Shown here: positions 10,324 through 23,796 of the stretch, in pieces
Layout of the letters: every line of letters starts with the position of its first letter
Numbering within the stretch: the stretch's first letter is position 1
NCBI GenBank assembly: GCA_014762645.1
Contig: JABURP010000040.1
Coordinates: forward strand, 1-38,042
Length of the DNA stretch: 38,042 nt
Reading direction: 5' to 3'
DNA from: Crocinitomicaceae bacterium
GTDB taxonomy: Bacteria; Bacteroidota; Bacteroidia; Flavobacteriales_D; Crocinitomicaceae
Notes under the pieces: generated by a model
The model's input: the letters and a program-made list of their open reading frames with translations, nothing else
What the model was told of the DNA's origin: nothing
The model's database searches: none
Made by a program: the position numbers and the translations under genes

Positions 10324-12309
10324 TTATTCGGAAGAAACATTTTCCGTTGTAACTGATTCCTGTTCATTCTCCACTTCCTGGAGTTTTTCTTCAATTTCGG
10401 CAATCATCTCCCATAACTTCAAACGTTCTTGCTTAATCTCTTCAAGATCTTTGTTTAATTCCTCATACCGGTTTATGGCTTCTTCAAGTTCTATGGATTT
10501 TTGATACAGTGCTTTGAGCAGGATCATGTTAACACCGTCAAAATCAATCGTATTTATCATGGTCGAATCTTCTCCCACACCAAAAACTGCGTAAAAATCC
10601 TGCGCCATTGGTCCAATATGCTGCACACTTGAATCCTGAGTAATATAGTTCCAGCGATATACGTCGATAGAGTCTAGTTTATCTATAAATGAATCGGCTT
10701 CAAGTTCAACGATATTTTCTTTAGAATTACGATCTGAAAGTGATGACCAGGCACCTCCTCCAGCCGGTAACGTAACACCCGTAGACAAATTTGAACTGGT
10801 GTAAAAAATTGCTCCACCTGAAGATTTTACCATAAACTGGTTGGGAGCATTTGTGTAGGTCCATCCAGCTGATGTTTGATCGGCATATAAAAATGCTCCA
10901 TCATGATCACACTGTGCTCTGTATCCCATGGCTACACCATTTGTACCATAAACACGGACAAAATTCCCAAATCCAAGTCCGTAGTCTGCGTATACTTCAG
11001 GATGATAACCTATAGCCACTGCACCGGTTGCGTTGGCAAAACATCCTCTTCCAATGGCAACTCCGTTTAATCCTGAAGCCTGCGAGTTTTGCCCAAGGGC
11101 AATAGAGTAGTCTCCTGTAGCGAGACATACAAATCCTCCTGAGAAACTTCCTTCTCCAGATGATGTACATGAATGACCAAATGCTGATGAATAATCACCA
11201 CTCGCTGTAGTGTTATAGCCTGTAGCCAATGAGTATTGACCAATGTTAACATCATTCCATACAGTTCCAGTAACATGTCCTGCCCTGAAAGATGCCTTAC
11301 CGGGATACCACATCATTCTGGTTCCGGCACCCTCTATTGGAATTGTTCCGGTACCAAAAGTTCCTGTATAAAGCACACCATTGGTATTATTTACATGAAA
11401 GTCCGCATTTGGATTTAAGGTTCCAATTCCAATTTGCCCATTGGCTTTGAATCGCATCCGCTCTGTATTGTCTGTTCTAATTACAAAATCAACTGAATCA
11501 ATGGTTCCTAGGAAATTAGTGACACCATCTGTATTGTCATTTCCAAGAATTCCCCAGTTGTTGATCGCATAATTGGCCACCGCAGCAGAATCTGCATAAC
11601 CTGCGGAATCTGCATACAATGCATTGAATGCTGTTAAACTATGGTTTGCCGTATCTGCATCATACGCGAAAAAAGCAGTATCTGCCGGAGCTACGGCGAT
11701 ACAGTTACTTGCATAACCGGCGGTATCTGCATAAGTAGATGAATCAGCCAACAATGCATATTGAGCAGTATCAGAATTAGTTGTAAAATCGTCCTGTCCA
11801 GGCACCCATTGTGTTCCGTTCCATTCCAAAATATCACCTACAGAAAGACCCGTTGTATCTACATCAAGCAATTCAGAAAGTTGAAATTCCTGTGAAGTAG
11901 TTTTAGCATGAAAAGCAAACGGAACCGCCATTAGCTGCTGCGTCATGGCCGATACAAATAGCCCTATATTGTTTTCATCCACCAACATTTCTAAAAAGTA
12001 AGTGTCATCCGCCCATGGAATATCAGAAAATTGTGCCACGGTACCTGTTCCCGTAGGTGTTCCCTGTCCTATCACCAAAGCAATGTGCCCCAATTCATTG
12101 GTGGTGACAACGTGGGTTTCCTGCCAAACAATTGTACCATTCATATTCGTTTGTCGAATATTAAACTCAACACCTATAGTGGCGTTAGATAAAAATTGTC
12201 CGGAAGATCCAAACACCTGCGACTGATATGCAATACCCTCTGGAAATGTCTGTGACCAGCCCATTATTCCACTGAGGCAGAGTATGCAACTAATTATCCA
12301 ATTTTTCAT
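10324..12309 (-). CDS. Tail-fiber/S74 (endosialidase chaperone) surface protein with YadA-like head repeats
   Basis: This 661-aa protein starts with a signal peptide (MKNWIISCILCLSGIMGWSQ). A domain typical of Bacteroidetes 'tail fiber' proteins follows (about 20-140), then degenerate YADTAGYA / YADSAGYADSA repeats (about 180-250) and a QIGIGTLNP turn. Next come YadA-head-like repeats of the form SxAxG (about 355-470), and finally an intramolecular chaperone of endosialidase (peptidase S74) domain. The S74 self-cleavage site is recognisable at Ser525-Asp526 (SLSDRNSKENI), with GPMAQDFYAVFGVGED downstream and a C-terminal coiled coil (about 600-650). S74 domains drive trimerisation and cut themselves off; that this copy does so is inferred. 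No T9SS sorting domain is seen. The start overlaps the upstream paralogue's stop by 20 bases. Confidence 0.85.
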   Translation of the reverse strand: MKNWIISCILCLSGIMGWSQTFPEGIAYQSQVFGSSGQFLSNATIGVEFNIRQTNMNGTIVWQETHVVTTNELGHIALVIGQGTPTGTGTVAQFSDIPWADDTYFLEMLVDENNIGLFVSAMTQQLMAVPFAFHAKTTSQEFQLSELLDVDTTGLSVGDILEWNGTQWVPGQDDFTTNSDTAQYALLADSSTYADTAGYASNCIAVAPADTAFFAYDADTANHSLTAFNALYADSAGYADSAAVANYAINNWGILGNDNTDGVTNFLGTIDSVDFVIRTDNTERMRFKANGQIGIGTLNPNADFHVNNTNGVLYTGTFGTGTIPIEGAGTRMMWYPGKASFRAGHVTGTVWNDVNIGQYSLATGYNTTASGDYSSAFGHSCTSSGEGSFSGGFVCLATGDYSIALGQNSQASGLNGVAIGRGCFANATGAVAIGYHPEVYADYGLGFGNFVRVYGTNGVAMGYRAQCDHDGAFLYADQTSAGWTYTNAPNQFMVKSSGGAIFYTSSNLSTGVTLPAGGGAWSSLSDRNSKENIVELEADSFIDKLDSIDVYRWNYITQDSSVQHIGPMAQDFYAVFGVGEDSTMINTIDFDGVNMILLKALYQKSIELEEAINRYEELNKDLEEIKQERLKLWEMIAEIEEKLQEVENEQESVTTENVSSE

Positions 12310-14200
12310 AAATAGATTCTATTCGTTCAAATAATTTCTGATTCTCTTTTGACTCGTTGTTGATCTTTTCTTCAATAACTTCCTGTTCCTGCAAATCATC
12401 CTCTATGTTATCAAAACGCTTATTCACCAGTATAATACCGGCCAATATGATCCCGTCTGCATCTACCATACTGATGTACCTGGAAGACTCTCCAACACCG
12501 AAGAGTGCATAAAGATCTTGTGCCATTGGACCGTAATGCATGAGTGGTGTGCCAATGTAGTTCCAACGGTAAATACTCAGCTGATTAATAGATGATTCAA
12601 AATTTTTATAGCCAACAGGTGTAATATTGTTTTTCAGATTCCTGTCTGAAATCATAGTCCAGGCACCTCCACCGGCACTCACCTGAACACCTGTTAATAA
12701 ATTAGTATCGGAGTAAAAAATAACTCCACCTGCTGCCCGCACCATGAACTGATGATTGGTTGTGTTAAATACGGTATCTGAAGTAGAAGCATCCCCATAA
12801 ATAAAGCATCCCCAGTAGCCATCTGAGCTCGCATTTGTTCCTATAGCTGTAGAAAATGGGCCATTTGCTGATATATTATATCCCGCAGCCCAGGAAGTGG
12901 CTCCTGTGGAAATCACATTGGTGCCAATCCCAATTGCTGATGAGGCATCTGACGCATATACATTTTTTCCTATGGCAACATTACGGTAAAAAGAAGCAGT
13001 ACATGAATCTCCCATGGCTACACCATAGGGTGCCGCTTTGCAATATCTCCCTGCAATAAATACACTTGAAGGATCGGTACCATTACCTGTTGTATCACCA
13101 AAAGATTGATTGCCAAAAACGGTAGAATAGGTCCCATTAGAAGTTACATTTTTACCAAAATGAAAACTGTACAATGCCTGGGTGGTATCTAAATTAGTAG
13201 TGCCGTCCCGATATCCCATTGCCAAACTTCTCCTTCCACCATTCATATAAAAATACGCGTCTTGTACCACTTGATTCTGAATAGCATTTTGCATGATATG
13301 CGTGACACCCTGATAGCCTGAAATATGAAAGGAGTTGGAAGGAAACACGCCGTTTTTGACAGTATTCCCGTCAAATATTAATCGTTGTGTATTGTTGGTT
13401 CCGAAAGCAAATGAGGTGTCAGTTGTTGTACCTGCAAAATGGAATGGTGTTAGCCCTGAATTCCCATTAATATTCCAATTATTTGGTGTAGACAACACAT
13501 AGTTTGCCGTATCCGTAATGCTTGTTGAATCAGAATTAAAAGCTGTAGATGTTGTGAATGCGTAATTCGCCGAATCAGTATAATCGGCAAATTGTACCGT
13601 ATCTACTAACGGGGTATTATAGATGACAACTGCTGCTGTATCTGAATAATTTGTTTGTAAGCTCTGCCACGTAAAAACCACCGTATCTGCCACAAGATCA
13701 ACTCCATTTACAAAGCCAGTTCCATCATACTTCAACACGGCTTGAGACGTCAACCCACTAATAGTGACGTCTAATAATTCAGCTGTTGAAGGAACATACT
13801 CGGTATGTAAACTATGGAAAGCATAAGGGTGCGAGAAATTTTGAAATTCACCAATCACATAGGGTGAGCCAGTAATATTGATAACCTCAATCGCGTCTAC
13901 CAGCTTCCAGTCAATTTCTGCAAAATCCGAATAGATACCACTTATATAAGTACCCAGACCAATAGGAAGTGTAAATACATTTTCAGCAGATACATTGACA
14001 GCAAGATGTTGCTCATACCAAATGGTATCATTCACCGAATCAACAATCAGCACGCCAATATCTGTAGTAGATCCTGAGTAATTATCGAGTTGAAACTGGG
14101 TATTAATACTTTTGAAGTTATACTGCTGTGACCATAGGTTGCCTGTAAAACTAAAACCAACAAAGAATAGGGCAATATGTAAGACGATACCTATCCGCAC
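12290..14200 (-). CDS. Tail-fiber/S74 surface protein, paralogue of the next gene
   Basis: The 636-aa protein is a diverged paralogue of the gene at 10324-12309 with the same plan. A signal peptide ends near NLWSQ at about residue 25, and an N-terminal domain of about 130 residues follows. Then come TADSA-like repeats (YTDSANYA, SITDTANYV; about 180-245), head-like repeats (VAMGDSCTAS, VAIGKNVYAS, SAIGIGTNV), and an S74 domain with the probable cleavage site at Ser518-Asp519 (MISDRNLKNNI). GPMAQDLYALFGVGES and a C-terminal coiled coil close it. It begins in a one-base overlap with the T9SS cargo gene and ends 20 bases inside the next S74 gene, so the three should be co-translated. A heterotypic or homotypic trimeric fibre at the cell surface is inferred. 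Confidence 0.85.
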   Translation of the reverse strand: MRIGIVLHIALFFVGFSFTGNLWSQQYNFKSINTQFQLDNYSGSTTDIGVLIVDSVNDTIWYEQHLAVNVSAENVFTLPIGLGTYISGIYSDFAEIDWKLVDAIEVINITGSPYVIGEFQNFSHPYAFHSLHTEYVPSTAELLDVTISGLTSQAVLKYDGTGFVNGVDLVADTVVFTWQSLQTNYSDTAAVVIYNTPLVDTVQFADYTDSANYAFTTSTAFNSDSTSITDTANYVLSTPNNWNINGNSGLTPFHFAGTTTDTSFAFGTNNTQRLIFDGNTVKNGVFPSNSFHISGYQGVTHIMQNAIQNQVVQDAYFYMNGGRRSLAMGYRDGTTNLDTTQALYSFHFGKNVTSNGTYSTVFGNQSFGDTTGNGTDPSSVFIAGRYCKAAPYGVAMGDSCTASFYRNVAIGKNVYASDASSAIGIGTNVISTGATSWAAGYNISANGPFSTAIGTNASSDGYWGCFIYGDASTSDTVFNTTNHQFMVRAAGGVIFYSDTNLLTGVQVSAGGGAWTMISDRNLKNNITPVGYKNFESSINQLSIYRWNYIGTPLMHYGPMAQDLYALFGVGESSRYISMVDADGIILAGIILVNKRFDNIEDDLQEQEVIEEKINNESKENQKLFERIESIYEKLDN

Positions 14201-14670
14201 TAGTTCTTGATTATTTTTTCTCTGAATGACCTTCCGTCAGTGAGCAAAACTTCCACAATATAAATTCCATCACTTATTCCTTCTAAAGTCAGACTATAAT
14301 TTTCACTATCCACCCACTCTACTCGAATCTTTTTTCCACTGATATCATACAGATATAGTTCTTTTATTACGGCAGCAGATGTGGTCACGTACAACACACT
14401 TTGCACCGGATTTGGATAGAGGGATAAACCTACTGGTGTATTCTCCGGTACTGAAAGTTGGGAATATTGTAATGGTAGGTAACCATGTAATATTTGGGGA
14501 GATAAACTTTCACCACTCATACTCTGTCCAGCCACTACGATCAACGAATCATTAGGTGAAACAGATTGAAAAGAAGTAATTGTGCTTTTTTGAACGGACT
14601 GGCAATAGGACACATTTACCGTGCCCAACAGGACTAGAAATGTACTCCAAAAGCGTATTCCGTTTTTCAT
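14200..14670 (-). CDS. Short secreted protein with T9SS type A sorting domain
   Basis: ATG 14670 forms an ATGA overlap with the wzt stop, so it is preferred over the ATG at 14682, which only adds MGNK. The product is 156 aa: a signal peptide ending near VSYCQ, about 50 residues including SFQSVSPNDSLIVVAGQS and a GYLPLQY segment, and then a C-terminal domain. That domain reads GLSLYPNPVQSVLYV, LYDISGKKI, ISDGIYIVEVL and FREKIIKN, the known Por/T9SS type A sorting pattern. T9SS removes this domain and links the cargo to A-LPS in Porphyromonas. The remaining mature part is very small. Its place directly behind the ABC exporter and ahead of two S74 fibre genes suggests that it nucleates or anchors them (inference). 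Confidence 0.85.
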   Translation of the reverse strand: MKNGIRFWSTFLVLLGTVNVSYCQSVQKSTITSFQSVSPNDSLIVVAGQSMSGESLSPQILHGYLPLQYSQLSVPENTPVGLSLYPNPVQSVLYVTTSAAVIKELYLYDISGKKIRVEWVDSENYSLTLEGISDGIYIVEVLLTDGRSFREKIIKN

Positions 14671-15941
14671 TTTATTTCCCATTCTGGTTGATAGTAGATC
14701 ACACCACTGCTTAATGGAAGAGGTCTGTTGACTTTGGTTGATCCATCTTCAACCTCAAACTGTCCACAAAATCGCAACATATCAATATGTTGACCGGAAA
14801 TTGCATCCCCTATCCACAAACCAATTTTATAGGTACTGGGATATAAGTTAAAATCTTTAAACGTTACTTCAAAAACGCGTTCACCTCTAAAGGCCTCCAA
14901 TTCAAAATTGGAGTCACCATTTTCTATATTTGAAAGTAAGGTTTCATCATACTTATAGAGATGAATGGCCATTCTAAAATTGATTTCTTTCTTTGAACGA
15001 ATTTTAATTCTTAAACCAAGATCATCTCCAATACATACACTTTTTGACAACTCACCATTTTTCAGAAAACTAAGTTCGGCAAACTGCATATCCCCGGTAC
15101 CTTCCCTTTCCTCATAACGCGTCAAGTCATACGTAAGTTGGTTTTCAAAAGATTTATTGCTCAAATAATGACCGACTGTCTCCTTTATATTTCCTTTAAA
15201 TTTTAATTCACCTGATTCGAGTAAAATTCCGGATTCGCACAAATTACTTACGGAGCTTAAATTATGACTTACAAAAAGGACCGCTCTTCCGCCCCTGGAA
15301 ATGTCTTTCATTTTACCGACACATTTCTTTTGAAATGCCTGGTCACCAACTGCCAGCACCTCATCAACCACCAGGATTTCTGATTCAAGGTGTGCTGCAA
15401 CCGCAAACCCTAATCTTACAACCATTCCTGAAGAGTATCTTTTTACCGGTGTATCCACATAATTTTCACATCCTGAAAAATCAACAATCTCATCCAATTT
15501 TTGACTAATCTCCTTTCGGGTCATTCCTAAAATAGCACCATTGAGATAGATATTTTCCCTGCCTGTTAGTTCGGGATGAAACCCAGTTCCTACTTCAAGT
15601 AAAGAAGAAATACGCCCTTTCATTTTGATTGATCCGGTGGTTGGGCTTGTGATCCGGGACAATAATTTCAATAAGGTTGATTTTCCTGCACCATTGGTAC
15701 CAACAACACCCATTACTTCCCCTTCACGAAGTTGAAAAGAGACATCTTTTAATGCCCATACATAGCTGCTCTGTTCTTTACTGTCTCTTACATTTGTTTC
15801 TGTAACCTTGAGGTATGGATCTTCTTTTCCCCTTACTTTATGCCAAAACCTGTTGAGATCATGTGATAATGAACCTGTACCGAATTGTCCCAGTCGATAC
15901 TGTTTGGATAGGTTATTTACTTCAACAATTACTTTTGACAT
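14667..15941 (-). CDS. wzt: Polysaccharide ABC exporter ATP-binding protein with C-terminal Wzt-like domain
   Basis: The 424-aa protein has a complete ABC ATPase: Walker A GTNGAGKST (81-89), LLEVGTGFHPELTG before the signature, signature YSSGM (169-173), Walker B ILVVDE (189-194) and switch His226 in VSHN. The FHPELTG stretch is characteristic of O-antigen/teichoic acid exporters. From about residue 255 to the end there is an extra beta-rich domain, as in Wzt proteins, where it binds the modified end of the glycan and couples chain termination to export. With Wzm it should move an undecaprenyl-linked polysaccharide across the inner membrane. It follows wzm after eight bases and overlaps the T9SS cargo gene by four. 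Confidence 0.92.
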   Translation of the reverse strand: MSKVIVEVNNLSKQYRLGQFGTGSLSHDLNRFWHKVRGKEDPYLKVTETNVRDSKEQSSYVWALKDVSFQLREGEVMGVVGTNGAGKSTLLKLLSRITSPTTGSIKMKGRISSLLEVGTGFHPELTGRENIYLNGAILGMTRKEISQKLDEIVDFSGCENYVDTPVKRYSSGMVVRLGFAVAAHLESEILVVDEVLAVGDQAFQKKCVGKMKDISRGGRAVLFVSHNLSSVSNLCESGILLESGELKFKGNIKETVGHYLSNKSFENQLTYDLTRYEEREGTGDMQFAELSFLKNGELSKSVCIGDDLGLRIKIRSKKEINFRMAIHLYKYDETLLSNIENGDSNFELEAFRGERVFEVTFKDFNLYPSTYKIGLWIGDAISGQHIDMLRFCGQFEVEDGSTKVNRPLPLSSGVIYYQPEWEIK

Positions 15942-15949
15942 AATTCGTA

Positions 15950-16858
15950 CTAAATGGTATCCATAAAGGACTTTTCAATTCGGTTAAACAAAACGATCCC
16001 CAGGAACAAAACTGCCATGGCAAACCCGGCACTATACGCAAGATGCCACCACTCAAATATTGCGATAGGTGTATCGGGGTCTCCTTTGGCATATGGACCA
16101 AAAAATCCATATTTAAAGGTTTCTATAACAGATGTCATTGGGTTCAGGACCATAAGCCACTGGTACTTTTCCGGAACTTTTGATAAGGGATACACAATTG
16201 GTGAGGCATACATGGCCAGTGAAATTCCAAACTGAATAAGAAAGCGTAAATCCCTGTACTTGGTTGTTAGAGAAGAAATAATCAAACCAAAACCAAGCCC
16301 TAATCCTGCCATAATAATTATAATAACTGGTAGTAATGACAATTGCCAGGTAAGTTGAACACCTGTATTGGTATCCCATAGCGTGACATACAGCACGTAT
16401 ACCATGATAAAAAGGACCAGTTGAATCAGAAACTTGATAAAGTTGGTAATCACAATGGACAAAGGCACTACCAGTCTGGGAAAGTAAACCTTTCCGAAAA
16501 TATTTTGATTGGCTATAAATGTATCAGATGTCTTGGTCACACAATCTGCAAAATAACTCCAGACAGTGACACCAGCGAGCATAAATAGTATGGTAGGTGC
16601 TCCGGTCTTAATTCCGGCGATCATTCCAAAAACTACCGTAAGTGTAATAGAGGTTAGCAATGGTTGTAGGATGATCCATAAAGGCCCAAGGATGGTTTGT
16701 TTATAGATCGAAATAAAATCACGCTTTACGAACAACATTATGAGGTCCTTAAACCTCAACAGTTCCCTAATGTTAAAGGAGAGTAACTTTCTTTTGGGAG
16801 TTAATATAATATCCCAGTCGTTCATAGTCGTATCAGTATGTGAAGTTAGATCGGACAA
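15950..16858 (-). CDS. wzm: Polysaccharide ABC exporter permease (ABC-2 type)
   Basis: The 302-aa protein has about six hydrophobic segments and the ABC-2 exporter landmarks: a cytoplasmic N-terminus with LRFKDLIMLFVKRDF, then YKQTILGPLWIILQP, and a late LRFLIQFGISLAMYASPIVYPLS followed by LNPMTSVIETFKYGFFG. It is the inner-membrane channel for an O-antigen, capsule or A-LPS-type polymer, paired with the ATPase gene eight bases downstream. ATG 16858 is the first start; an inner ATG at residue 12 is possible. A TAnnTTTG element on the same strand lies just upstream (16891-16898), so the exporter may be made independently of the Wzc-like gene. Confidence 0.92.
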   Translation of the reverse strand: MSDLTSHTDTTMNDWDIILTPKRKLLSFNIRELLRFKDLIMLFVKRDFISIYKQTILGPLWIILQPLLTSITLTVVFGMIAGIKTGAPTILFMLAGVTVWSYFADCVTKTSDTFIANQNIFGKVYFPRLVVPLSIVITNFIKFLIQLVLFIMVYVLYVTLWDTNTGVQLTWQLSLLPVIIIIMAGLGLGFGLIISSLTTKYRDLRFLIQFGISLAMYASPIVYPLSKVPEKYQWLMVLNPMTSVIETFKYGFFGPYAKGDPDTPIAIFEWWHLAYSAGFAMAVLFLGIVLFNRIEKSFMDTI

Positions 16859-16917: not shown

Positions 16918-19299
16918 CTAGTCTGATTCCTGGTTAGTATATCCCTCGCCATATCCATAACCATATCCGTAACCATAACCATAGTTGTATGTATAGCTAT
17001 AACCGTATTTTGAATAATAGTATTGGAACTTATTCTGTTTGATTCCATTAAGCACCAATGCCGTACTTATCTGCTCATTTCTTTCCAGAAGGCCTTTAAT
17101 ATGATCCAATCCCCTTTTGTTAATTTGATGTGCCCTAACAACGACCAGCAGATTATCTACCCGTTTCATTAGTTCAAACGAGTCATTGAGTACCCCAAAC
17201 GGAGGTGTATCAACTATAATATAATCATATTTACCTTCGCCGTATTCAAAGATAGCATCTACCTTGTCTGAAAGCACCAATTCTGAAGGGTTAGGTGATA
17301 TCGGTCCAGAAGTAATGATATCCATATTCGGCAGAACATCTTTTTGTAGAATCTCTTCCATTGAAGATTTACCAATAATATATGTTGACACCCCTTTGTC
17401 ATTTGGAAGATCAAATACTTTATGAATCTTAGGTCGGTGCAGGTCAAAATCTATGAACAAAATCTTTTTTTCTCCTTTTGCTATTAAGGCTCCCAGGTTG
17501 GTTGAGCAAAATGTTTTTCCTTCTCCGGGATGAAATGAAGACACAAGCACTTTTCTCGTATCACTTTGTTTTGCCATGAAGGAAAGATTAGTTCTGATCG
17601 TTCGGAAACTTTCTGTTCCATGAGATTTTGGATTATCTTCAATTAAAAGATGATAGTTTTTGTTTTTATTCAATTGAATACCTCCGGCAATTGGAATATC
17701 GGTAGCCTGAGCAAGCGCAGCAACACTTCCAATTCGTTCAAAGAACAGGTTTCGAATCAGTGCAATAAGTAAAGCCAGAATTACACCTCCCATTAAGAAC
17801 AATCTTTTGATTTTCGTTTTATCTGGTGATACTACACCCAATCCAACAGTTTGCTCAATTAATCTTACCTGAGGAACAATACCTGCTCGAGCAATTAAGG
17901 TATTTGTCTTTTTCTCCAAAAGGAATAAGTACATTTTATTGTTAACATCCAATTCCCTTTGAATATTCATTATTCCCTGAGCAGATCGTGGCAAAAACTT
18001 TATTTCTTTCTCGTATTTACCTATCAATCTGTTGAGCACGCCAAGTTCAACATTCAACGCTTCTTCAAGATTATTCAGGTAACTAACAATATCCTTTTTC
18101 AGATAAGAAATTTCATTCTTAAGATTTTGAATGAGTAAATGACCTTCCTTTACCTGAGTTCGTTTTATTTCAAGTTCAATTTGCTTTTCACGCACTTTTT
18201 CAATGGCATCTCCAAGGTAAATGTCATTTTTTTCAATAAAAAAGGATGGTGGAAGAACGCGATCATCATAGTCTGATTTCAAATAATTTTGTAGTGATTT
18301 TATAGAACTGATCTTACGCTCTATCTCTCTTTTGTCCTTTCCGTAAGCTATATATTCTTCAAAGTATTGATCACCTTCCTTTTCAACATCAAGAATTGCG
18401 TTAACATCCTTATATCTAAGTAACTCGGTCTCTTTTTCTTTTATAAAATTACTGACCGTATCAATCTGTTTTTCAATGTTTTCAAGTGTATTCTGATTTA
18501 CTTCCAACTGTATTCTTTCTGATCGCTTTATATAGCTATGCGTCAATGTATCAAGAAACACCTTAGCGCGAGGTTGTAATTCATCCGTCACAGATAAACT
18601 AAGGATACTGGTATATTCAATATTTTCTACATTTAATCGGGATCGAAACTTGCCAATCAAATTTTTTCTTGAGTGAAAAACCAACTCATAATCAGGTTGT
18701 AGAATAGACTCCATACTTTCATCCAGAAAGGTGTAGTTTTTATCCAACGTTAGTCTGAAATCATCTGTAACAAGCTCTTTATCAAATTCATGACGCATGG
18801 TGATTTCCTTGTCATTGGATAAATAAGATATTTCAAATTCGTTTTTGTTTAAAATACTAATTGAAACGGGTTGCTCATACAACATTGGGTTGGTTACAAC
18901 TACACTAGAACGAAAAGGAAGCGTACCAAAAACTTCTTGCTTTTTTAACCGACCGACAATGTAATAGGATGTTTCAATGTTAATCTTGTCAATCACCTCT
19001 CCTATTAGGTCATGAGACGTAAGGATTCGAATTTGATTTTGTACATCCATATACATACCGTAGGCTCCTAAACCTTTGTATATAGGATCTTGGTAATTAT
19101 ATGTTTCGTTTGATTTTAGTAAAATTTCGGCTTTTGCACCATATATGTTTGGTAAACGATACGAATAAATGTACCCAACACCGTACGCTATAATAGGGAG
19201 TAGAATTATTACCATTATATTTCGAAGGAATAACCTCCAAACAAACAGTAAATCTTTAACGTCAATTAAATTGTTAGATGTTTCTTTTGTTTTGCTCAT
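16918..19299 (-). CDS. wzc: Wzc-like chain-length regulator and tyrosine autokinase (PCP/BY-kinase)
   Basis: The 793-aa protein has an N-terminal Wzz domain with a first membrane segment at about 28-50. A long coiled-coil periplasmic part follows (about 250-480), then a second membrane segment at about 500-520. The cytoplasmic BY-kinase domain shows Walker A SSFHPGEGKTF (about 590), Walker A' ILFIDFDLHRP (about 613-623) and Walker B YIIVDTPPFG (about 697). The tail from about residue 755 is extremely tyrosine-rich, with 14 Tyr in 28 residues and a run of Tyr-Gly repeats, the expected autophosphorylation cluster. It controls chain length and assembly of exported polysaccharide. It is the first gene of the long reverse operon, with a promoter-like element at 19360. 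Confidence 0.92.
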   Translation of the reverse strand: MSKTKETSNNLIDVKDLLFVWRLFLRNIMVIILLPIIAYGVGYIYSYRLPNIYGAKAEILLKSNETYNYQDPIYKGLGAYGMYMDVQNQIRILTSHDLIGEVIDKINIETSYYIVGRLKKQEVFGTLPFRSSVVVTNPMLYEQPVSISILNKNEFEISYLSNDKEITMRHEFDKELVTDDFRLTLDKNYTFLDESMESILQPDYELVFHSRKNLIGKFRSRLNVENIEYTSILSLSVTDELQPRAKVFLDTLTHSYIKRSERIQLEVNQNTLENIEKQIDTVSNFIKEKETELLRYKDVNAILDVEKEGDQYFEEYIAYGKDKREIERKISSIKSLQNYLKSDYDDRVLPPSFFIEKNDIYLGDAIEKVREKQIELEIKRTQVKEGHLLIQNLKNEISYLKKDIVSYLNNLEEALNVELGVLNRLIGKYEKEIKFLPRSAQGIMNIQRELDVNNKMYLFLLEKKTNTLIARAGIVPQVRLIEQTVGLGVVSPDKTKIKRLFLMGGVILALLIALIRNLFFERIGSVAALAQATDIPIAGGIQLNKNKNYHLLIEDNPKSHGTESFRTIRTNLSFMAKQSDTRKVLVSSFHPGEGKTFCSTNLGALIAKGEKKILFIDFDLHRPKIHKVFDLPNDKGVSTYIIGKSSMEEILQKDVLPNMDIITSGPISPNPSELVLSDKVDAIFEYGEGKYDYIIVDTPPFGVLNDSFELMKRVDNLLVVVRAHQINKRGLDHIKGLLERNEQISTALVLNGIKQNKFQYYYSKYGYSYTYNYGYGYGYGYGYGEGYTNQESD
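16949..16984 (-). repeat. Tyr-Gly codon repeat in the Wzc-like tail
   Basis: Six-base units of the type CCATAT / CCATAA / CCGTAA (plus strand) repeat in tandem and encode alternating Tyr and Gly. The third codon positions vary between units, so selection on the protein rather than fresh DNA slippage probably keeps the repeat. Unit number may still vary between strains. Confidence 0.8.
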
Positions 19300-19472: not shown

Positions 19473-22400
19473 ATGATGAATTGCAAATCCGTTCTCTCCT
19501 TTTCCCTCTTAACTTTTTTCGTCACGCTAACCTCAACTGCTCAAACCGGAGCGGGTGGTGTTGGAACAACTGGAACAAACCCAATGTGGTATGATGCCAA
19601 TGAGCTAAACCTTGTAAATGGAAATAAAGTTTCGAACTGGCAGGACATGTCAGGGAACGGAAATGATCTATCACAAACAAATGCTACAAAACAACCCATT
19701 TATACAGATGGTGCCCTCAATGGATTGCCAGTTGTAACTTTTGATGGTGCTGATGATTTTTTAACCCGAGGAGCTACAAGTGGCCTTGGCGGAGGCGAAA
19801 TTACTGTCTTCATTGTGTTTCAACGTTCAAGTGCTACAGCTCAGTGTTTGATCAACGCAGGTTATTCAGCAGAACTTGATAAATGGATGATATACGACCC
19901 CGGAAATGACCGCCTGGTATGTAAGCACAAAAGCCCTACTAACAAGTATGCCATGTGGATTGGCGGAACCGGAACTCCTACTTTTACATCAACTCACTAT
20001 AGAGGTGCAGGAACACAGGTATACAGTCAGGGAAATTTAATGGGAACCAATTCGACACCCTATACAGCTCAGTCTGGTCACAATCTAATTCGTGTTGGCA
20101 CGTACAATTATAATGTAACCAATTACCTTCTTGATGGATTTATTGCAGAAATTGTTGTATTCAACACAGACTTGAATATACTGGAGAGAAGGATTGTAGA
20201 AAATTATCTTGGTGCAAAATACGGACTTTCAATTCCAGTTGATCGTTACGCGTATGAAGCTACGCACAATGTAGGAGTTATTGGAATCGGAGATAACGGC
20301 TTTGATACGCATACGGATTCAAAAGGCGCAGGCGTATTGCAAATTTCAAATCCTACAGCACTTACAACCGGTGATCACCTTTTTTGTGGCCATACAAATG
20401 ATGCTTTGAGTTCATTTACCACTGCTGATATTCCAGCTTCATTGTCAGGTTCAAAGAGATGGACTAGAACATGGAGAGCAGGAGAAACCAATGATGTAGG
20501 AACGGTCAATGTAACGTATCATTTAACCGGAGGAAATAATTTTGCTGCTGGTGCTACTTATAGACTACTCGTTGATACGGATGGTAACTTTTCAGATGCA
20601 ACAATAGTTTCAGGGACTTATGACGGTGGTACGCAAACTGTGAGTTTTACGTATGACTTTTCTGATGGAGATTACTTTACGCTTTGTGGAGTTGAACAAA
20701 CCTTGGATATTCACTCCATTACTTCTGGTAACTGGAGTAACACTGCAACCTGGGACTGCACATGTATCCCTACCTCCAATGATGATGTTTTTATAGATCC
20801 AGGACATACAGTAACGGTTGATGTTAATGCTGAGTGTGATTCACTTTACATTGATCCAACAAGTACTTTAGCCATGAATTCTACTGTGAATATTGATATC
20901 CTGGGATCGTTTGACAATGATGGTACTGCCAATTTTACCGACGGTAGTGTTTCACTAATAGGAACACAGGAGCAAACAGTTGATGCCGGGGCTAATGGTA
21001 TAACTTTTAATGATCTTATAATTAACAATACTGTTCCGAGTGATGTCAATTTTGTTAATGGCACATTTACACTAAATGGGTTGATGACACCAACATCCGG
21101 AAATGTAATTGTATCAAGTCCGTTTATTATTAATTCAACCTCTGCGACAACTGGTGGTAGAGTTGGTATGACTGGTGGTGGATGTTCTTTCACTGGAGAA
21201 TTTACAGTACGAAGATTTTTAGAAGGCGGAAATTCTGACTGGAGAAATATAGCATCACCTGTTATGGGGGCTGATTTTAATGACTGGGATCCAGATCTTT
21301 CCATTAGCTGTACAGACTGCCCTGATGGATGTGCTTATGGAAGTAACGGTTGCTTTGTTTCAATTAGGAGGTATAAAAACAATACTACGCTGGATATTTC
21401 ATCAATTAATGATCCAATAACAAATGCCACTGGATACGAAGTATATTGTGGTGATGATCTTTCAACTTTTACAGGTACAACCTTGAACACAACTGGGACT
21501 TTACGAACCGGAACACTGGATGAATCAGTTTCAGGTAACTGGGAAATTAAGGGTAATCCTTACGCTTGCCCAATTGATTTTGACGATTTAACCTTTTCAG
21601 GAGTAGGACAGTACTACTATGTATATGATGCTGCTATAGGTGGATACCAATGGTACGACAGAGCTTCAGGTAGTGCAAGTACACCTGAACTGGCTGATGG
21701 CTACGTTGCAATGGGTCAGGCTATTTGGATGATGGGACCAGGTACCATATCCTTTACTGAAGGAATGAAGGTGGAAAATGCAGATGCAACATTCAAAACT
21801 CAGGAAAAGCCAGACTATTCACTTTATTTAACACTGAAAGAAAATAGTAGTTTATATTCTTGTATTGCAAATATTGATGCATCTGTTTCAACTTTGGATG
21901 GATTGGATGAATTGGATGTCATGCATTTAGAACTACCTGATCAAAAAGCGCCATCAATTGCATTCAAAACTTCAGGAGAACTCGTTAGAAAAAGTTACCT
22001 GGAACAAAATCGACTTGACAAAGCTGTGCCAGTGTATATAAACATTTTAAATGAAGGGTATTATACGATTGAAGCGAGTAACATAGCCAACTTTAATGAT
22101 TATAGTTATGTTTACCTATATGACAGTGAGACTGGAGATATGATTGATCTCAAAGACGAAAACTACGTTTTCTACAGTGAAGTAGGTGTTCATGATTCAA
22201 GACTGACCTTGATTTTATCCAACTCAGAGGTTTCTGATAGTGAAGATACAGGATACCTGAATATTTCAGATGACAATAATGGCATTTCATTTGTACAAAT
22301 GGATCATGTAGTTGACATACGTATAACAGATTCAGGCATTGAAAATGCAGAGATCACATTAATTAATGCCCTTGGTCAAGTTGAGAGATATTTTGAATTA

Positions 22401-22514
22401 ACCAGTCTGGTTGAGGGAAGTAATTTAATCACGATTCCTGCTGATGTGAAAGGTGTAAGAATTTTATGCGTCAACATTAATGGGCAAAGAATTACGAAAA
22501 AACTCGTATTTTAG
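19473..22514 (+). CDS. Large secreted LamG-like protein with T9SS type A-like C-terminus
   Basis: The 1013-aa protein (ATG 19473 or 19476) has a signal peptide ending near TSTAQ at about residue 24. A LamG/concanavalin-like jelly roll (about 35-255) follows, recognisable by NKVSNWQDMSGNGNDL, PVVTFDGADDFL and the closing VENYLGAKYGLSI. A second beta domain follows (about 260-410: GVIGIGDNGFDTHT, RWTRTWRAGE). Then comes a beta-helix-like stretch (about 415-560: DDVFIDPGHTVTVD), a Cys cluster at about 612-628 (CTDCPDGCAYGSNGC), and a C-terminal domain with INALGQVERYF and ending KKLVF. The last domain resembles, but is weaker than, T9SS type A signals. It is probably surface-exposed and may bind polysaccharide. 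It is co-directional with the PID mini-protein, 21 bases upstream of its ATG. Confidence 0.85.
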   Translation: MMNCKSVLSFSLLTFFVTLTSTAQTGAGGVGTTGTNPMWYDANELNLVNGNKVSNWQDMSGNGNDLSQTNATKQPIYTDGALNGLPVVTFDGADDFLTRGATSGLGGGEITVFIVFQRSSATAQCLINAGYSAELDKWMIYDPGNDRLVCKHKSPTNKYAMWIGGTGTPTFTSTHYRGAGTQVYSQGNLMGTNSTPYTAQSGHNLIRVGTYNYNVTNYLLDGFIAEIVVFNTDLNILERRIVENYLGAKYGLSIPVDRYAYEATHNVGVIGIGDNGFDTHTDSKGAGVLQISNPTALTTGDHLFCGHTNDALSSFTTADIPASLSGSKRWTRTWRAGETNDVGTVNVTYHLTGGNNFAAGATYRLLVDTDGNFSDATIVSGTYDGGTQTVSFTYDFSDGDYFTLCGVEQTLDIHSITSGNWSNTATWDCTCIPTSNDDVFIDPGHTVTVDVNAECDSLYIDPTSTLAMNSTVNIDILGSFDNDGTANFTDGSVSLIGTQEQTVDAGANGITFNDLIINNTVPSDVNFVNGTFTLNGLMTPTSGNVIVSSPFIINSTSATTGGRVGMTGGGCSFTGEFTVRRFLEGGNSDWRNIASPVMGADFNDWDPDLSISCTDCPDGCAYGSNGCFVSIRRYKNNTTLDISSINDPITNATGYEVYCGDDLSTFTGTTLNTTGTLRTGTLDESVSGNWEIKGNPYACPIDFDDLTFSGVGQYYYVYDAAIGGYQWYDRASGSASTPELADGYVAMGQAIWMMGPGTISFTEGMKVENADATFKTQEKPDYSLYLTLKENSSLYSCIANIDASVSTLDGLDELDVMHLELPDQKAPSIAFKTSGELVRKSYLEQNRLDKAVPVYINILNEGYYTIEASNIANFNDYSYVYLYDSETGDMIDLKDENYVFYSEVGVHDSRLTLILSNSEVSDSEDTGYLNISDDNNGISFVQMDHVVDIRITDSGIENAEITLINALGQVERYFELTSLVEGSNLITIPADVKGVRILCVNINGQRITKKLVF

Positions 22515-22535: not shown

Positions 22536-22787
22536 ATGAGAGAAAGAAATTTAAAAAATAACGTAATGGTGTTGATACTATCAGCACTATTCACAATGTT
22601 AAGTGCAGTTGTATTTGCACAACCGCCGGGTGGCGGACCACCGGGTGGCGGAGGTGGTGGTGACCCCCCTTGCTGGGATCCAGAGTGTATTCCGATTGAC
22701 GGGGGTATTGTATTCCTAATAGCCGCCGGTACTTTATTGGGAATTAGGATGATTTATAATCACAGAATTGAGAGTAGAACAGAATAG
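22536..22787 (+). CDS. Mini-protein with PID-type exosortase sorting signal
   Basis: ATG 22536 gives 83 aa; the TTG just before it is not needed. Residues 1-29 form a signal peptide ending VVFAQ. Residues 30-45 are a Pro/Gly run (PPGGGPPGGGGGGDPP). C46WDPEC51 is a CX4C pair. Residues 53-57 are PIDGG, followed by a membrane segment (about 58-74) and a basic tail (NHRIESR). Signal peptide plus short motif, membrane helix and basic end is the layout of PEP-CTERM-like exosortase substrates; the PID version is, to my recollection, the Bacteroidetes one. The predicted mature part is only about 20-25 residues. The exosortase gene follows at once. The function is unknown: a surface peptide, glycan carrier or redox pair are possibilities. 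The stop codon lies inside a terminator hairpin. Confidence 0.8.
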   Translation: MRERNLKNNVMVLILSALFTMLSAVVFAQPPGGGPPGGGGGGDPPCWDPECIPIDGGIVFLIAAGTLLGIRMIYNHRIESRTE

Positions 22788-22802: not shown

Positions 22803-23336
22803 ATGCGGAAACTTCTTGATAGTAAAATAGTACGATTTCTGCTCCTTGGAGGAGTGCTGTACGTCGTGTGGCTTCTCATTTACTATCTGCTCATCAAATC
22901 TTATACAAACTGGGACTACCTGCTGAACTACAACATTGTTTGGTTATCACAAAACTTTCTTGATTGGATCGGTTTTCAAACCATGATAGAAATAGAAAGT
23001 GACCACGTGGTGATTGTGATGGCCGAAGGTGACCTAAGGCCTATTTTACTCGGTGATGAGTGCAACGGATTCAAACTCTTTGCAATCTTCTCTATATTCA
23101 TACTGGTTTTCCCGGGGTCCTGGAAGAGCAAACTCTGGTTTATTCCATTAGGTCTTTTAATAGTACACTTGGCAAATGTTATACGTGTTTGCTCATTGAC
23201 CCTGATTAATAATTACCATCCTGATTACCTGGATTTTAACCATCTTTATACGTTCACCATATTTGTGTACGGAATTATTTTCGCACTGTGGTACTGGTAT
23301 GCCAAAAAATTCAGCCACTATGCCCAGAAAAAGTAA
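22803..23336 (+). CDS. Archaeosortase/exosortase family protein (Bacteroidetes XrtF/XrtX-like)
   Basis: The 177-aa membrane protein has about five to six hydrophobic segments and the exosortase triad in the right order: Cys87 in GDECNGFK, Arg128 in HLANVIRV and His147 in DFNHLYTF. This family is thought to cleave C-terminal sorting signals at the membrane and pass the cargo on, often in strains that make exopolysaccharide. The length fits the short Bacteroidetes types rather than the long EpsH form. The likely substrate lies directly upstream, and a small membrane partner overlaps its 3' end. Whether it belongs to XrtF, XrtX or another subtype cannot be decided from sequence reading. Its start codon sits right behind a terminator's T tract. 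Confidence 0.9.
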   Translation: MRKLLDSKIVRFLLLGGVLYVVWLLIYYLLIKSYTNWDYLLNYNIVWLSQNFLDWIGFQTMIEIESDHVVIVMAEGDLRPILLGDECNGFKLFAIFSIFILVFPGSWKSKLWFIPLGLLIVHLANVIRVCSLTLINNYHPDYLDFNHLYTFTIFVYGIIFALWYWYAKKFSHYAQKK

Positions 23337-23796
23337 AATCATATTTCTTTCAAGCATAATTGTACTTCTGGGATTTCTCAGGGAATATCTTTTTGTGAAT
23401 ATCAACTGGATTCATTTGACAAAAACAATTGCCCGTCGAAATGCAGCAAGGGACGAATTTAATTTCCTACTAGATTGGACAGTTGGCGAAATTGTAATAT
23501 TAAAATGGGTATTGACCATCATTTTCGTTGCCTTATTCACATCACTCACATGGATCATTATTCGTTTGGCATTTGGGAATAAACTCTATAATAAAATAAC
23601 GTTATTAGTTTTTGGTGCATTGCTGGTTATTTCTGGAATCCTGTATGTACCTTATGTGTTGGCCGGATATCCAATAGAATTATATGCAGTCATTCGAACA
23701 TTAATGGGATTAGCTCAATCCTTTATGCCGTTAATGCTTCTTGCTATTGTATTCAAATTTTTACCGCAAGTGTCAAAGAATGAGCAGGAATTATAA
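23320..23796 (+). CDS. Exosortase-associated small membrane protein
   Basis: From ATG 23320 the protein is 158 aa; ATG 23299 would add seven residues. It has four likely membrane segments: [14 protein letters not shown], a segment around [35 protein letters not shown], and [18 protein letters not shown]. An early [11 protein letters not shown] motif and a soluble loop with [12 protein letters not shown] lie after the first segment. It overlaps the exosortase gene by 17 bases, so the two are probably co-translated. Small membrane proteins next to Bacteroidetes exosortases are recognised as system-associated proteins of unknown role. This one fits by position, size and topology. No catalytic motif is seen. 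Its end overlaps the -7 element of glyA. Confidence 0.7.

Follow-up and report, generated by a model that had tools for sequence, protein, structure and literature searches.

A tiny PID-CTERM precursor of a Crocinitomicaceae bacterium, conserved beside exosortase X, and a candidate parallel in the XrtF system of Flavobacterium johnsoniae

Several bacterial systems combine a tripartite C-terminal sorting signal with a membrane protease. In the PEP-CTERM/EpsH (XrtA) system, the signal is paired with an exosortase and the genes lie in a polysaccharide neighbourhood. In Aquincola, overexpression of the PEP-CTERM protein PepA increased bound exopolysaccharide and decreased the soluble fraction (PMC9850573). 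Rhombosortase/GlyGly-CTERM and myxosortase/MYXO-CTERM have the same kind of signal and also a membrane protease (PMC11980579), but their enzymes are unrelated to exosortases. Transfer of the new C-terminus to something else by the exosortase is a proposal from the literature (PMC7468200, PMC11980579), and the attachment at the C-terminus of an exosortase product has been called an 'unidentified compound' (PMC7468200). Within the Bacteroidota, the XrtF system of Flavobacterium johnsoniae (Fjoh_1448/Fjoh_1449; TIGR04128/TIGR04127) comprises a small exosortase and a small membrane partner; the targets of XrtF were stated in 2025 to be not yet known (PMC12188702). A further system is named in NCBIfam by three models: exosortase X (XrtX, NF046081), the sorting signal PID_CTERM (NF046080) and an XrtX-associated membrane protein (NF046082).

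The DNA analysed here, referred to as the window, is a stretch of 38,042 nucleotides from a Crocinitomicaceae bacterium (GCA_014762645.1, contig JABURP010000040.1). It contains a pair of precursor and exosortase genes which belongs to the system named in NCBIfam, since enzyme, tail and partner all have a model there; tail and enzyme score above the cut-offs and the partner just under its own. A PEP-CTERM label for the pair was rejected because PIDGG stands in place of the PEP motif, and the locus also differs from PEP-CTERM/EpsH in that almost no mature protein is encoded. Compared with the rhombosortase and myxosortase systems, the Cys residues here belong to the cargo and precede the signal; they are missing from 29 of 29 PID proteins of other families. 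XrtX and XrtF are both small exosortases of the same superfamily, but the enzyme of the window is not an XrtF, as it reaches only 67.2 bits with TIGR04128 (cut-off 90). In the open-licence literature searched, the term 'PID-CTERM' is not mentioned, and neither a rule of very small cargo, nor a conserved loop, nor an XrtF substrate was found. The small size may already have come to the notice of the NCBIfam curators; what the present analysis contributes is the rule of tiny cargo, the Cys loop, the selection acting on the mature peptide and the link to XrtF. The positions of all features are collected in Table 1.

Table 1. Features of the exosortase locus and of the polysaccharide genes beside it, with positions in the window.
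Feature	Position	Strand	Evidence
Wzm/Wzt-like polysaccharide ABC exporter genes	15950-16858 and 14667-15941	-	named by sequence inspection
Wzc-like polysaccharide chain-length/tyrosine autokinase protein, divergent	16918-19299	-	TIGR01007, Pfam Wzz, GNVR
Secreted protein, 1013 aa, T9SS type A-like tail	19473-22514	+	TIGR04183; homologue cluster in 37/81 loci
PID-CTERM pre-pro-peptide, 83 aa	22536-22787	+	NF046080 match; upstream of XrtX in 75/80 loci
N-terminal signal peptide, residues 1-28	22536-22619	+	hydrophobic stretch, mean Kyte-Doolittle 2.49
Mature Gly/Pro peptide Q29-I52, 24 residues	22620-22691	+	lowest dN/dS, 0.054 pooled, 70 pairs
C46-W-D-P-E-C51 loop (CX4C)	22671-22688	+	Cys pair kept in homologues
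PID-CTERM sorting signal P53-E83: PIDGG, hydrophobic helix, basic tail	22692-22784	+	NF046080 over residues 53-74
Exosortase X (XrtX), 177 aa, with C87, R128 and H147	22803-23336	+	NF046081
XrtX-associated membrane protein homologue	23320-23796	+	NF046082, 70.5 bits; homologue in 78/81 loci

The precursor gene starts with the ATG at 22536 and ends with the stop codon at 22785-22787. Its product can be written as MRERNLKNNVMVLILSALFTMLSAVVFA/QPPGGGPPGGGGGGDPPCWDPECI/PIDGGIVFLIAAGTLLGIRMIYNHRIESRTE, where the two slashes mark boundaries set by inspection. The predicted signal peptidase I cut (..VVFA/Q29) lies before Gln, as it does in 66 of the 75 xrtX-adjacent homologues when the Gln is assigned by rule. 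By inspection, Q29 directly follows the signal peptide, which is the arrangement of the Bacteroidetes Q-rule (PMC5837995), and its cyclisation is predicted. The mature part contains the 16-residue Gly/Pro run PPGGGPPGGGGGGDPP, one residue of which is Asp. The tail matches PID_CTERM with 34 bits (cut-off 26), the only NCBIfam model matched by the protein. Thus the signal peptide, Pro/Gly run, CX4C pair and PIDGG-helix-basic tail that had been read from the sequence alone are all present, and the expectation of about 20-25 residues left after removal of both signals agrees with the 24 residues found.

XrtX exceeds its NCBIfam cut-off (184.8 bits, cut-off 170), and C87, R128 and H147 are invariant in 30 aligned XrtX sequences. 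We take these Cys, Arg and His residues to be the putative catalytic triad of the exosortase. For ArtA, an active-site Cys and an SrtA-like triad have been described (PMC11980579). A search of the XrtX sequence against solved structures returned just four matches (E 0.13-0.29), which were taken as chance, and the AlphaFold model of XrtX (mean pLDDT 86.2, pTM 0.80) gave no PDB match at E ≤0.001. The partner gene begins inside xrtX, the overlap being 17 bp. As the partner scores just below the NF046082 cut-off of 75 bits for curated membership and a homologous gene occurs in 78 of 81 loci, it is termed a homologue here. The gene for the secreted protein ends 21 bp before the precursor gene, which in turn ends 15 bp before xrtX, and its T9SS-like tail just misses the TIGR04183 cut-off (22.2 bits, cut-off 23). 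Secreted protein, tiny precursor, exosortase and membrane partner look like one transcription unit, and the secreted protein is a possible functional partner of the peptide.

In a scan of named genomes, 104 places were confirmed and 80 XrtX loci kept, one of which (L170) is from Crocinitomix catalasitica ATCC 23190. A tiny gene lies directly upstream of xrtX on the same strand in 75 of the 80. Among these is L203 (JAHECK010000196.1, 261-482), in which PVSDH (PVSDHIGW) replaces PIDGG while CFPPPC is retained, so that the loop may persist where the signal diverges. Of the five remaining loci, L210 and L213 carry the tiny gene about 600 bp downstream of xrtX on the opposite strand. The pattern search detected no PID gene in L185 or L195; downstream in L195 there may be a variant, its tail bearing PLTG. 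L200 has only 205 bp of sequence ahead of xrtX before the contig breaks off. The sequence-only reading had proposed a dedicated pair of neighbouring substrate and exosortase with almost no mature protein, and had regarded the ORF as doubtful if relatives did not conserve it at this place. The conserved adjacency and the small cargo give this proposal strong support.

A Cys pair was found by pattern in all 75 adjacent genes, as CWPPPC in 42, as CWEPEC in seven and with a different sequence or spacing in the remainder; in L205 and L206 the pattern match begins at a Cys of the signal peptide, and the mature part of each has a pair of its own. From Gln to PID, the mature part has a median length of 20 residues (range 11-27; 66 of the 75 genes with a rule-based Gln). 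For the analysis of selection, the 74 loci with P[IV]D[GS]G (without L203) and the window provided 75 genes, of which the 68 with a rule-based Gln start were used. Over 70 pairs at 65-97% identity, the pooled Nei-Gojobori dN/dS was 0.054 for the mature part, 0.337 for the signal peptide and 0.143 for the tail, whereby the pairs are not independent and gapped columns are uncounted, leaving out length changes in the Gly/Pro linker. Ranked in this way, the values suggest that the mature peptide is the target of selection. In the alignment of the 68 homologues the first Cys is conserved in 100%, the second in 93% and the Trp in 82%; the high percentages of Gln, Pro, Asp and the last Gly are not used as evidence, because they result in part from the choice of genes by the motif and the Gln start.

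Co-occurrence of PID_CTERM with XrtX, a criterion of this analysis, was found both in relatives and in the phylum. Among 99 relatives including the own genome, 37 have an XrtX match, 29 of these over the cut-off. With the own genome left out, PID_CTERM is matched in 33 of 36 XrtX-bearing relatives versus 2 of 62 without XrtX. The two exceptions without XrtX are G018 (79% complete, match over the cut-off) and G086, whose match is below the cut-off and lies in a 1434-codon frame. XrtX without a PID match was found in G065 and G085, where XrtX itself is below the cut-off, and in G074 (taken as L203), which has the adjacent tiny gene with the altered signal. In a sample of 395 genomes from the phylum, a PID match is present in 44 of 46 genomes with XrtX over the cut-off (exceptions: G243 and G476) versus 2 of 279 genomes without XrtX (Fisher p 1.8e-49, kinship of the genomes ignored), and both matches among the latter are marginal (E 0.005-0.006). 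Another 70 genomes have a below-cut-off match to the XrtX model, and 27 of these have a PID match.

The small size of the cargo had been regarded as odd for a dedicated sortase, but it is not peculiar to this genome. For 150 PID matches over the cut-off listed from the phylum, the open frames, whose size is an upper bound on protein length, have a median of 80.5 codons; 129 have ≤120 codons, 149 have ≤200 codons and one has 995. Tiny cargo is the rule for PID-CTERM among the matches listed. The 995-codon frame (L157, G262), with the PID-like tail VPIDGEVW..., is the only long protein among the 150. In 29 PID proteins from other families (L065-L093), the part from Gln to PID is often only 11-16 residues long (e.g. 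QPGLPSAPSQA) and contains no Cys in any of the 29. Processing in general therefore does not depend on the Cys loop, and a role of the Cys residues as part of the sorting signal was rejected. Cys pairs outside this order occur in some proteins which are below the cut-off or of the XrtF type (L152, L285, L289).

The assembly of the own genome (4.23 Mb, 99% complete) was searched for many longer PID-type proteins, which would have made the tiny precursor only one of several cargoes. It has two PID_CTERM matches over the cut-off, the window gene and a gene on contig G000:C38 (L098, ~2100-2380), both of them tiny; a third match remains under the cut-off with 13.6 bits. The longer profile A2, built with both genes, detected no third PID gene at E ≤0.01, the next matches (E 0.04 and 0.13) lying within frames of >800 codons. 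By these two profile searches, many long PID cargoes in this genome were rejected. The general exosortase model has one match over the cut-off and three others below. The second PID gene is a 90-codon ORF, the mature part of which ends with ..SPCWDTECI before PIDGG. It comes after genes for a DegT-type aminotransferase and a sugar transferase (labels by inspection), the latter with a homologue in L244 that matches Pfam Bac_transf; further on, past the PID gene, lies a groEL-like gene, also labelled by inspection. In G001, which is of the same genus, the xrtX locus is without a PID gene, and the PID gene found elsewhere adjoins a homologue of the C38 sugar transferase (277 bits). Both arrangements indicate that the cargo gene can sit away from xrtX, next to a polysaccharide gene.

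Polysaccharide genes are also frequent around xrtX. Clustering of the neighbours in 81 loci (the 80 and the window) yielded the partner in 78, a Wzc-containing cluster in 68 and SHMT in 44 loci, besides the cluster of the T9SS-tailed protein. The Wzc-like protein of the window scores 164.7 bits with TIGR01007 (cut-off 108.05) and matches Pfam Wzz and GNVR; its C-terminus, encoded at 16918-17000 (-), is rich in Tyr and Gly (GYGYGYGYGYGEGY). A Wzc homologue aligned over ≥400 residues is present in 56 of the 80 loci. Among the 24 loci without it, 16 have <4 kb of upstream sequence, and the others with ≥4 kb are L165, L177, L185, L189, L195, L213, L216 and L239, three of them with <4.6 kb. Homologues of the two exporter genes were found in 27 (15950-16858) and 25 (14667-15941) of the 80 loci. 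More distant XrtX loci (L240-L257) were probed with a narrow set, and 7 of the 18 (L244, L246, L248, L253, L254, L256 and L257) have homologues of polysaccharide genes from the window or C38; two of the 18 are cut by contig ends, and the XrtX of L257 is below the cut-off. In L244, xrtX closes, on the downstream side, a series of genes on one strand which encode an aminotransferase, a hexapeptide transferase, an oxidoreductase, a UDP-sugar dehydrogenase and a sugar transferase. The gene order of the window is repeated in L310 (G578, genus g52), starting with a LamG protein bearing a T9SS tail, followed by a 61-aa PID_CTERM protein (39.3 bits), an XrtX-like exosortase (122 bits, below the cut-off) and a small ORF. 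A role of the peptide as a handle for glycan or lipid attachment, one of the functions considered for it at the outset, would fit this gene neighbourhood.

Like the XrtX system, the XrtF system has a tiny Pro-rich candidate substrate, detected by a profile named A3. Weak PID_CTERM matches in family f17 turned out to be tiny Pro-rich precursors, e.g. with QGGTPPPPMPPPPPG before LPIDGG. Thirty f17 genomes were taken as XrtF-bearing, as their exosortase reaches ~96-120 bits on the XrtX model; the XrtF identity was upheld by TIGR04128 in five of them (G322, G119, G123, G314 and G318). A3 was built from eight tiny f17 proteins and has matches at E ≤0.01 in all 30 genomes (weakest 6e-4). Leaving out the eight source genomes, it matches 22 of 22 f17 genomes taken as XrtF-bearing versus 0 of 19 genomes without XrtF, and also 5 of 8 similar f16 genomes. 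In 150 genomes of the genus g52, a set with no A3 source genome and four genomes present in the earlier set, 120 have both XrtF and an A3 match, 10 XrtF only, 7 A3 only and 13 neither (Fisher p 2.9e-8), with three A3-negative genomes inferred by elimination and G578 scored as XrtF-positive despite a below-cut-off match. All seven genomes with A3 only are assemblies of at least 130 contigs, and A3 had no match in the 11 XrtF-less g52 genomes that are at least 98% complete. Two XrtF-type tiny proteins, L285 and L289, have a Cys pair before PID (CEDFGC and CEDPELPSC); the remaining ones examined differ from these two in the Cys pair.

For F. johnsoniae, the A3 match can be related to published phenotypes. 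Genome G622 (one contig, 6,096,872 bp) has a PorZ ORF of 2283 bp (NF052228, 910.9 bits) and an XrtF-partner ORF of 447 bp (TIGR04127, 155.5 bits). As these lengths equal those given for the fjoh_0707 and fjoh_1449 fragments in PMC10936215, we infer that G622 is strain UW101. Its sole A3 match is an 80-aa ORF at 710504-710794 (-) with E 1.7e-12. Between this match and porZ, 61 ORFs of ≥70 codons were counted, and 55 after dropping six which were judged dubious by eye with the expected gene number in mind. Since 55 is the number of genes from Fjoh_0652 to Fjoh_0706, gene counting indicates that the match is probably Fjoh_0651. The complementing fragment of 434 bp, which covers fjoh_0651 and its presumed promoter (PMC10936215), is compatible with a gene of 243 bp. 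Of the other small ORFs listed nearby, those of 405 and 417 bp are closer to porZ by three to five genes, and another four, of ~100 codons each, are more distant by about seven or more genes.

According to the results given in PMC10936215, deletion of fjoh_0651, xrtF or fjoh_1449 in each case lowered sand colonisation, strongly reduced biofilm and abolished zorbs. The zorb-abolished class is common to 8 of 9 mutants in that report, T9SS mutants included, so that the phenotype shared by Fjoh_0651 and xrtF is not very specific. In its discussion, the substrates of the exosortase are deferred to later work. In F. johnsoniae, the candidate differs from the precursor of the window in being unlinked to xrtF and in having no Cys pair, and no polysaccharide locus was seen among the neighbours of Fjoh_0651 that were examined. 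From the A3 profile we predict that Fjoh_0651 is a substrate of XrtF. The pairing of XrtX with a tiny peptide recurs across the Bacteroidota, and by this inference the related XrtF pair would include a tiny protein required for biofilm formation.

Taken together, we propose with a probability of about 0.6 that the precursor is the cognate micro-substrate of the neighbouring XrtX and that its mature peptide works at the cell surface. To judge from its sequence, the precursor would be exported by Sec and signal peptidase I would remove residues 1-28, exposing Q29, which would be converted to pyroglutamate according to the Bacteroidetes Q-rule. From family knowledge and co-occurrence, XrtX would recognise the PIDGG-helix-basic signal and cut at or near PIDGG. 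The resulting peptide of ~24 residues, probably closed by a C46-C51 disulfide, may then be released or handed to a lipid or glycan acceptor and shown on the surface. Gene neighbourhood and the XrtF parallel in F. johnsoniae point to a role in tying exopolysaccharide or biofilm matrix to the cell, a matrix-binding function for which analogies are found in PMC9850573 and PMC12188702. Only tentatively do we consider that XrtX and XrtF of the Bacteroidota could be peptide conjugases rather than general sorters of proteins. Each would join a conserved peptide of ~11-27 residues to a glycan or lipid of the surface, and the resulting polysaccharide, capped with a ribosomally encoded peptide, would anchor the biofilm matrix.

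Other readings of the tiny protein were weighed against this proposal. As a sacrificial or regulatory substrate, it would only occupy or sense XrtX, and the mature peptide would be waste. Such a signal controlling the sortase had been suggested from the sequence alone, and it would suit the very short mature part, the position directly before xrtX and the presence of exactly one PID match in 31 of the 33 PID-bearing XrtX relatives. It is disfavoured, because purifying selection is stronger on the mature peptide than on either signal and this peptide keeps, in this order, a Cys loop of its own, present in all 75 adjacent genes. Also, a PID gene can be located away from xrtX beside a sugar transferase, and the inferred counterpart in F. 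johnsoniae is itself needed for biofilm in the experiments of PMC10936215; we therefore regard waste as an improbable fate of the peptide. The chances of a secreted signalling or antimicrobial peptide, freed by XrtX and leaving the cell as a short Pro-rich molecule, are similarly small. Its size, Pro/Gly composition and leader-core-follower layout would agree with this, as would mature parts of down to 11 residues before PID in other families, but the core is conserved and not diversified, and only the partner, Wzc and SHMT clusters occur in a majority of the 81 loci; among the rarer, unannotated clusters there may be a receptor or immunity gene.

It also seems unlikely that XrtX mainly handles longer proteins missed by the PID_CTERM model, with the tiny protein as just one member of its cargo. 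The 995-codon frame of G262 does bear the signal, and divergent tails could escape an HMM; against this stand the A2 search, which yielded no third gene in this genome at E ≤0.01, and the frames of ≤200 codons for 149 of the 150 listed phylum matches. Only 83 aa long and of low complexity, the ORF might finally be spurious or a degenerate remnant of a larger exosortase substrate. We consider this next to impossible and rejected a spurious ORF in view of its conservation beside XrtX in 75 of 80 loci and of purifying selection, dN/dS being <1 in all three regions; the close co-occurrence with XrtX argues likewise against a remnant.

For the proposed micro-substrate, mass spectrometry can read all 24 residues of the cargo along with anything joined to it. 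These pairs are therefore an unusually clean way to the questions of the acceptor and of the XrtF targets. Should Fjoh_0651 prove to be the substrate of XrtF, this would account for a biofilm gene that carries no annotation beyond 'hypothetical protein'; if XrtX and XrtF do act as conjugases, Fjoh_0651 would be the first of their substrates for which a phenotype is known.

On the minus strand of the window, two large ORFs are located at 10324-14200. Presumably, both of them end in a tail resembling the chaperone of endosialidase (peptidase S74).
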